Positions 45,921-47,440 of a stretch of DNA of 64,000 nucleotides are shown one piece after another. The DNA comes from Isosphaeraceae bacterium (GTDB lineage: Bacteria > Planctomycetota > Planctomycetia > Isosphaerales > Isosphaeraceae). Under the pieces are notes generated by a model, which saw only the letters and a program-made list of their open reading frames with translations, was not told where the DNA came from and did no database searches. Each line of letters starts with the position of its first letter. Position 1 is the first letter of the stretch. The stretch lies in contig JANXSX010000048.1 in assembly GCA_025356475.1 (NCBI GenBank), positions 62,001-126,000 of the forward strand, in the 5' to 3' direction. The translations under genes were made by a program, and so were the position numbers.

Positions 45921-46040
45921 CCATCGCGAGCGGGATTTCTTCCCGCATGGATGCCAGCGATTGGCCGGGGGTCGACCGAGGTACGAGCGATACCACCGGT
46001 AGCGTAACGCGATAAGAAACACACCGGAGGTGTGCCAGCG
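45921..46040 (+). repeat. Palindrome-rich dispersed repeat, copy 1
   Basis: About 120 bases that match, in reverse orientation, the stretch at 47255-47372. Identical cores are ACGAGCGATACCACCGG (17 bases) and CACACCGGAGGTGTGCCA (18 bases). The second core is itself an imperfect palindrome (CACACC...GGTGTG). No reading frame here resembles a known protein. Confidence 0.75.
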
Positions 46041-46152
46041 GCGATGTTGGAGACGCCCTGTCGATCCTCTGGACCTGGCGGGCAGGATCGCCCCAAAACG
46101 GCCTCACGCCGTCAACGATCTTCCGAATTGTCAAAGAGCCTGCGGCCAAAAT

Positions 46153-46932
46153 CTACAAAAGCGGCGAGGCGACCGGGGCCTCTTCAGCGTCGGCGGAAAC
46201 GGTCGAGGATGGCGAATCTGCCAGTGCAACTTCAACTTCAGGATCTTCTTTGGTGGCCAGCAGCCGCTCCTTTTCCAGGACCTGAATGCGTCGTTCGCAA
46301 CTGGCGATCTCGCGTTCGGTCCTATTCAGGAACGGGTCTGTATCGAAGAATTCCCCGGCTTTCGCCTTGGCCTGAGCGTCCTTGTTCTCGAGGTCGAGCA
46401 CTTTCATGATCTCTGTCAGCCGGCGCAACTCGCGAATGAAGAGTTCGCGATACTGTTTCCGAACAGCGATTTCCCACTCGGGATCATCACGTGAAATTGC
46501 GTCGGTATTGAGTTCAGACTCCTCGTTATCCCACTCGTCGGGAGGAATCCCCAACAGGCAGTGGGCAGTCATGTGGTCACGCTTACTTAGCTCGCCTTTG
46601 AACTTCTTTGAGACCACTTTCTGGTGAAGGTAGCTCCAGCGCTTCATCAAGAAAAGACAGCCGTGATACGTGGTCGTCAGTCGAGCGACGACACGGCCTG
46701 GTTGACTTTTGATCCTAGAGGCCAGGGCTTCGACCTTATCGCGATGGTCGGCATCCCAGACCAAATCCGCTCTACGAATGAGCCATGCCCGCTTGGTCTC
46801 GGACCGTTCTTGCAACAATGCAAGCCGTTCACGTTCCAATTTGATGGCGTGATCGACCTGGCGAATCGTGCGCCTGGTGATGTTTGAGGCGGGGATGGCT
46901 CCCGAAAGTGTGGCCGTCGTTGAGCGTGACAT
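46153..46932 (-). CDS. Unknown helical protein inside the repeat-flanked island
   Basis: 259 residues, strongly charged and mostly helical. The middle holds TTTYHGCLFLMKRWSYL, and then KRDHMTAHCLLGIPPDEWDN. This GC-x-F-L-x-x-RW layout reminds me of a family of unknown-function proteins I have seen in planctomycete genomes, but I cannot confirm it. C-terminal half: long helices (RELFIRELRRLTEIMKVL, EREIASCERRIQVLEKERLL), then an acidic Ser/Ala-rich tail. ATG 46932 (MSRSTTATLS) is preferred; an upstream start adds 17 hydrophobic residues that lie over an inverted repeat. No transposase motif (DDE, HUH) is visible. It is flanked on both sides by inverted copies of a dispersed repeat. Confidence 0.65.
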   Translation of the reverse strand: MSRSTTATLSGAIPASNITRRTIRQVDHAIKLERERLALLQERSETKRAWLIRRADLVWDADHRDKVEALASRIKSQPGRVVARLTTTYHGCLFLMKRWSYLHQKVVSKKFKGELSKRDHMTAHCLLGIPPDEWDNEESELNTDAISRDDPEWEIAVRKQYRELFIRELRRLTEIMKVLDLENKDAQAKAKAGEFFDTDPFLNRTEREIASCERRIQVLEKERLLATKEDPEVEVALADSPSSTVSADAEEAPVASPLL

Positions 46933-47084
46933 CGTCGTAATCCCGTAAAGAGGGTGCAACATCGCACGTAACGGGATTACCATCGGTATGCGGGGCTAGA
47001 GGCTTTGGGGATTTTGGGAGAATTTGCGAAGATTTTTTGGATTAGAGGAGGGCGGGTGGGTGAGCAGGTTTTCCGCAAGTCATC

Positions 47085-47140
47085 CCTCCCCAGGGCGTTG
47101 CCGGTGGGCTGATATGTGGCCGCCCTTACAGGGCTATAAG
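47085..47140 (+). repeat. CCAGGGCG-type palindromic repeat
   Basis: Two GC-rich hairpin arms (CCCAGGGCGTTGCCGGTGGG and GCCGCCCTTACAGGGCT) joined by CTGATATGTG. It looks like a repeat type that I recall as widely dispersed in planctomycete intergenic regions; only one copy is seen in this window. Confidence 0.5.
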
Positions 47141-47201
47141 GCTCATGAGGACATCAGGTTACGTCAGATTTTCAAGGATGCCTGCGGCATCTTCGCAATT
47201 C

Positions 47202-47231
47202 GCCGGTGGTTGAGCGAAGCGACACTACCGG
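47202..47231 (+). repeat. Partial repeat unit in direct orientation
   Basis: GCCGGTGGTTGAGCGAAGCG followed by ACACTACCGG: the central unit of the dispersed repeat, oriented like copy 1. With the facing copy 2 it forms a larger inverted pair that could extrude as a cruciform. Confidence 0.6.
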
Positions 47232-47254
47232 ATCAACAGTGCATCTCCCGCCGC

Positions 47255-47372
47255 AGCGTTGGCACACCTCCGGTGTGCATTTTGATCGCGTTGGTCGTCC
47301 GGTGGTATCGCTCGTGCCTCGCTCGACCACCGGCTGGTAGCTGGCATTCCTGCAGGAGGAAATCCTCTCTCG
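47255..47372 (-). repeat. Palindrome-rich dispersed repeat, copy 2 (inverted)
   Basis: Reverse-complement counterpart of 45921-46040. The two identical cores lie at 47260-47277 and 47299-47315. The two copies enclose the unknown gene, spanning about 1.45 kb from end to end. Confidence 0.75.
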
Positions 47373-47440
47373 ACCACTGGCTAATGGCTGGCTTCCCTGC
47401 GGGATGAAATTCTTGCTCCTTCATCGGCTAATGGCTGACA
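47324..47440 (+). repeat. Tandem degenerate units of about 47-49 bases
   Basis: Unit 1 (47324-47370) begins CGACCACCGGCTGGTAGCTG, unit 2 (47371-47419) begins CGACCACTGGCTAATGGCTG, and a partial third (47420-47440) contains TCATCGGCTAATGGCTGAC. Each full unit ends with a CTGC...GAAAT segment. The array overlaps the end of copy 2. Confidence 0.6.

Follow-up and report, generated by a model that had tools for sequence, protein, structure and literature searches.

A locus of REPtron-like layout in an Isosphaeraceae bacterium as a candidate copy of a dispersed single-gene unit with an rRNA-type boxA sequence past its stop codon

The closest described systems in terms of layout are the REPtrons, in which tnpA-REP (RAYT) genes lie between inverted REP palindromes (PMC3733652, PMC8266576, PMC2817692). 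The locus reported here resembles them in that a protein gene is placed between inverted palindromic repeats which are also present elsewhere in the genome; it differs in that the protein gives no Y1/HUH profile match and has an all-helical model, in that the family gene is itself present in tens of copies, most of which lack the paired repeats, and in that a boxA sequence lies at the 3' end of the family gene. Inverted palindromes occur on both sides of the copy in the window and upstream of one further copy, L070, but not at most copies; the protein encoded between the repeats is not of the Y1/HUH transposase-like type, and we observed neither the target-site duplication nor the common terminal inverted repeats expected of a classical insertion sequence or MITE. 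Judged on these features, the locus is REPtron-like in its layout, but is not a REPtron.

With respect to its 3' end, the relevant precedent is boxA, a short signal that keeps rRNA transcription going. Cases outside rRNA operons have been described, including in the suhB leader; the known non-rRNA examples given by Baniulyte et al. (2017, PMC5725501) are from gamma-proteobacteria and precede genes. The 3' motif of the family considered here shares its sequence with the boxA of rRNA operons in this bacterial family and, in contrast with the suhB type, follows the stop codons of dozens of paralogues rather than lying upstream. The window is a 64-kb stretch (C90:62001-126000) of the 5.9-Mb, 232-contig assembly of an Isosphaeraceae bacterium (G000). 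We put at roughly one in two the probability that the locus represents a single-gene unit which is dispersed, in many copies, through genomes of Isosphaeraceae-type planctomycetes, a figure which includes the predicted use of the boxA as a 3' signal and the proposed roles of the 3' motifs and of the protein.

The first-pass annotation had drawn attention to a palindrome-rich repeat on both sides of the gene in opposite orientation and with identical 17- and 18-base cores, and both observations hold. The downstream repeat (45933..46067, + strand), defined by alignment of the arms and by genome search, is also present 3' of other copies of the same subfamily, S1; the upstream repeat (47230..47410, - strand) has a homologous arm in L070 only. 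The outer arms (45933-46018 and 47280-47365, 86 nt) and the inner arms (46020-46067 and 47230-47277, 48 nt) are each 79% complementary, giving approximately 135 nt on each side with a separation of about 1.16 kb (45933-46067, 47230-47365), and form the strongest inverted pair in the window. In the whole window there are exactly two occurrences of each core (CACACCGGAGGTGTGCCA and ACGAGCGATACCACCGG), one in either flank and in opposite orientation, the chance expectations with up to 3 mismatches allowed being 0.04 and 0.14, respectively. As read from the sequence, the repeat comprises three hairpin-forming palindromes in a row, i.e. GCACACC-TCC-GGTGTGC, CCGGTGGT...ACCACCGG and CATCCC-TGC-GGGATG, and the right arm runs on as a tandem 47-bp unit (47317-47363, 47364-47410).

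A genome search with the left arm gave 18 matches in G000, corresponding to 17 separate sites, about 11 of which have a family gene within approximately 0.6 kb and are almost always placed 3' of it; several of these are homologous copies, so that the sites beside family genes are not independent events. It is very improbable that two unrelated intergenic repeats flank the gene by accident: the repeat does occur away from the family, at no fewer than five sites without a family gene nearby (C228:152911, C173:25020, C50:31140, C22:7537 and C215:7644), but the proportion of sites beside family genes and the recurrence of the inverted layout in L070 both argue against coincidence. The association with the gene family also speaks for the earlier annotation, to which repeats unrelated to the family would have been adverse.

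Of those close copies whose upstream flank is readable, the window copy and L070 (contig C6) alone have the inverted upstream arm. L070 is at a different locus and has both a homologous inverted upstream repeat and a homologous linker between arm and leader, implying that the gene-plus-repeat block has been copied; the similarity to L070 stops at the outer edge of a palindrome. These shared features, together with the concentration of the repeats beside family copies, are what would be expected of a composite element, in which two MITE- or REP-like palindromic repeats and the gene are moved together by a transposase acting in trans. We nevertheless consider such an element improbable, because the upstream arm is missing from most copies, both arms are absent from the copies of subfamilies S2 and S3 and from those of G020, a genome of a different genus, and target duplications, for which the annotation had proposed a search, were not found. 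The four Y1 transposase fragments of G000 have no such repeats near them, and a RAYT was rejected as mobiliser on the same grounds. Consistent with the annotation, there is no transposase within the repeat-to-repeat interval. Its suggestion of a cassette or MITE-like unit stands in so far as the gene has many dispersed copies and the block has been copied, but not in so far as it has the repeats as general unit ends; they more probably belong to a family of intergenic repeats carried along with some of the S1 copies, without defining the ends of the unit.

The sequence that close copies at unrelated loci have in common, as defined by blastn of the own-genome copies, spans 46099..47168 (- strand): similarity to L053 and L071 stops at 47168 and that to L085 at 47166, with the other limit (46099) set by L053. 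Dispersed units of this type are approximately 1.1 kb long, with sharp edges and unrelated contexts, and consist of a leader, an ORF and a conserved 3' end. In the G000 subfamilies similarity extends over up to about 215 bp of leader, and further in the window copy and L070, where it takes in the palindromic repeat, and over up to about 260 bp 3' of the gene, the remaining kilobase being unrelated between copies. The leader of the window copy is assigned to 46984..47168 (- strand), with a start near 47040-47055 possible in other copies; the S1 leaders start either at 47166-47168 or, where the copy is shorter, near 47040-47055, and those of S2 begin at about 47040-47055. G020 copies likewise have common leaders, mostly of 90-220 bp. 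Just before the start codon these leaders (L233-L252) have two short palindromes in common, CGCGCGACGYCGCGCG and CGCCGAYGYCGGCG, which suggests a structured 5' UTR. Derivation of the unit leader from an rRNA leader was rejected, boxA alone standing out in that comparison.

A palindromic stretch of the window leader (47089..47135, + strand) has a weak likeness to the Acido-Lenti-1 RNA (RF01687; PMC2864571), with better matches elsewhere in G000; in the window the score is below the gathering threshold (20.4 versus 37 bits, E 0.11), and the stretch is a feature of the longer S1 leaders only. Acido-Lenti-1-like hairpins in inverted pairs about 95 bp apart, a BIME-like arrangement, were seen in G000 at C189:4715-4854, C201:18459-18599 and C80:31823-31964, the C80 pair being upstream of a family gene.

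The ORF itself (46153..46983, - strand) encodes a 276-residue protein of subfamily S1 of a multicopy family, assigned by protein and family-profile matches in G000 and by dN/dS; position 46932 is a possible internal start. Searches with the protein gave 34 matches in G000, of which four cover the full length (82-100%), a further group is at 50-60% and the others are near 30%, and a family profile built from canonical members found 45 places in G000 and 37, 24 and 34 in three other genera (G020, G007 and G018, respectively). Many of the G000 matches are at contig ends, and pairs of contigs break at an equal position (C6/C134, C53/C54, C142/C84), as expected of an assembly broken at identical segments. 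Relatives were found in eight other genomes from six genera, and a phylum-wide sample, with only five candidates scored per genome, gave matches in 23 of 394 genomes. Canonical members, which came to light among the relatives in the eight genomes, have the N-terminal motif STGPKTxEGKxxSRxNAxxHGL, which the window copy lacks; the N-terminal part is also present in Acidobacteria, Armatimonadetes, Chloroflexi, Omnitrophica and one Syntrophaceae MAG. The genome-contig and viral-contig collections searched contained no close relatives, and a plasmid search gave a single weak match, in Planctomyces sp. SH-PL62.

At the sequence level there was no meaningful match to known families in Pfam, NCBIfam, PHROGs, PADLOC or the PDB, the window protein having no Pfam match at E <= 1 and none of 27 family members matching the Y1 profile. 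AlphaFold models of the window protein and of a canonical member are all-helical (mean pLDDT 84.5 and 80.4, respectively); Foldseek gave no match at E <= 0.001 for either, and the best VIA-align score (Z 9.6, versus coiled coils) is inside the range expected for helical models. Our literature search found nothing on the gene family or on a 3' boxA in planctomycetes. That a family can number tens of copies in a genome and match none of these five resources points to a large blind spot.

The values of dN/dS, 0.17-0.33 within S1 and 0.29-0.43 for positional counterparts in G007 and G025, two genomes of another genus, indicate that the ORF copies are under purifying selection. Five copies tested hold the same positions in G007 and G025, so that movement in these genomes is at best slow; in the clearest pair of counterparts (L255 versus L391) the gene is 85% identical and both flanks are 95% identical, implying that the gene evolves faster than its surroundings. 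Conserved positions and purifying selection are both properties of an old paralogous family, spread by rare duplication and rearrangement and homogenised by gene conversion, for which the leader and boxA would be promoter region and 3' UTR, and the identical segments at contig ends could equally reflect conversion or recent copying. We regard such a family as a possible but less probable explanation, given the sharp edges and unrelated flanks of dozens of copies, the existence of solitary 3' ends without a gene and the lack of a counterpart of the window copy in relatives: beside coaE none was present in 18 relatives, in 16 of which the coaE-rho adjacency is fully visible. In G020 a family gene is 4 kb from coaE. 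The ends of 14 G020 units have no shared direct repeat, and outside the window repeats no direct repeat of >7 nt was found at unit ends. Mobility is a putative property of the unit: the dispersed, sharp-ended copies, the solitary ends and the coaE-rho comparison speak for it, and the lack of target duplications and the fixed positions in G007 and G025 against it.

Past the stop codon, the copies of S1 and S2 have in common the sequence TCTTTGACAATTCGG or CTTTGACAATTCGG, which most copies of G020 also carry. In the window copy, an exact CTTTGACAATTCGG (46123..46136, - strand), of the rRNA boxA type, lies 19 nt past the last sense codon and is the sole exact occurrence in the window. Exact CTTTGACAATTCGG is present at 31 sites in G000 and 17 in G020, compared with 0 for the reversed pattern, and 28 of the 31 G000 sites come after a family stop codon, a count based on 14 of 17 sites read directly and 14 more placed by coordinates, with C152 and C156 among the latter resting solely on a contig offset that matches C7 and C59. 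Of the three remaining sites, two retain the 3'-end sequence of S2 but have no gene, and resemble solitary ends of the unit. Allowing up to 2 mismatches, boxA was found within 300 nt downstream of 21 of the 37 G000 members examined and of 14 of 20 G020 copies, as well as downstream of L149, which comes from the MAG of an uncultured member of the Isosphaeraceae; members in the other genomes sampled gave no such match, and no case was antisense to or upstream of a family gene. The spacing is 16-23 nt in all G000 cases except one. The S3 members of G000 are without boxA and have a related, degenerate sequence at the equivalent place; the motif is thus not essential to the family, since S3 and most of the other sampled genomes have genes without it.

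Because the G000 assembly contains no 16S gene, the comparison with rRNA boxA was made with six related genomes, in which we found sequence identity or near identity with the rRNA-operon motif. In G020, CTTTGACAATTCGG precedes 16S genes by 264 nt at three sites, and the sequence around a fourth site matches theirs. A match with 1-2 mismatches is present 230-377 nt before 16S in five more genomes of the bacterial family (an offset of -1414 on one contig reflects a locus cut at the contig end), where the motif usually recurs in the spacer past 16S. This pre-16S and spacer location is the established place of boxA in rRNA operons. The likeness might still be non-functional, with the 14-mer serving the unit as a site of recombination or binding and equalling rRNA boxA by chance. 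Such an origin is conceivable and would suit the position of the 14-mer after a gene and not before one, the degenerate S3 sequence at the same place, and the prospect that the S1, S2 and G020 copies have one ancestor; against it count the match in G020, where 14-15 nt are exactly those of the genome's own rRNA boxA, and near identity with that of five other genomes, and we hold it less likely than a working 3' signal.

With boxA as a working signal, its use in the 3' UTR being a predicted function, the unit would be transcribed from its own leader and its protein made, NusB-S10 (NusE) would load on the boxA, and RNA polymerase would leave the gene in a Rho-resistant state, which could make insertions less polar on their neighbours. 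Alternatively, the benefit may lie in a completed, structured 3' end in S1. The polarity benefit is not favoured, because neighbour orientation is 7 to 7; the structured end is favoured by the fold of the window copy alone. A role for boxA in serving the downstream gene was rejected, the co-directional and convergent neighbours (7 to 7, on rough gene calls) looking random, as was a conserved hairpin after boxA, with z -2.2 in the window and -1.4 to +2.0 elsewhere.

The 3' nucleotide motifs, boxA here and CGAAACGAA[CG]CCA in other subfamilies, may mark the end of the unit for the copying machinery, and the helical protein may act on nucleic acid, with its own unit or transcript as the probable target; as the agent that copies the unit it is a candidate by association only. 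A wider proposal, which we consider rather doubtful, is that of an undescribed class of selfish or domesticated single-gene units that number in the tens per genome in Isosphaeraceae-type planctomycetes and have relatives in other phyla; they would be defined by 3' signals (boxA letting transcripts escape Rho, or CGAAACGAA[CG]CCA) and propagated by a helical protein that does not resemble known transposases. Were the predicted use of the 3' boxA to hold, boxA antitermination would extend beyond rRNA, phage and a few known regulatory leaders to the 3' ends of a whole multicopy family.

The second motif, CGAAACGAA[CG]CCA, is often near the 3' end of copies without boxA, including S3 of G000 and copies of G018, G007, G025, Acidobacteria and Omnitrophica. 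It was found at 46 distinct sites in approximately 1.9 Mb of loci biased towards family genes, with no occurrence of reversed or complemented controls in the same 1.9 Mb. The motif may lie in the ORF in two frames (ETNPI/ETKPI or RNEPI), past the stop codon or antisense; since frame, position and strand vary, it is conserved as nucleic acid rather than as peptide. Its placement at the 3' ends of family genes is seen across phyla (L035:2760-2845, L090:3943-4087, L145, L151, L158, L173, L176 and others), and it also occurs alone in short arrays, with L035 having three copies about 35 bp apart. The second end motif is not enriched in viral contigs, and phage spread of CGAAACGAACCCAATT was rejected, with 12 viral contigs versus 84 for the reversed pattern. 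Two family members from one genome, the Acidobacteria MAG JAPKZA (L164 and L166), are followed at 47 and 50 nt past the stop codon by TCTTTGACA(C/A)C/A-like sequences, which are possibly the acidobacterial lineage's own boxA.
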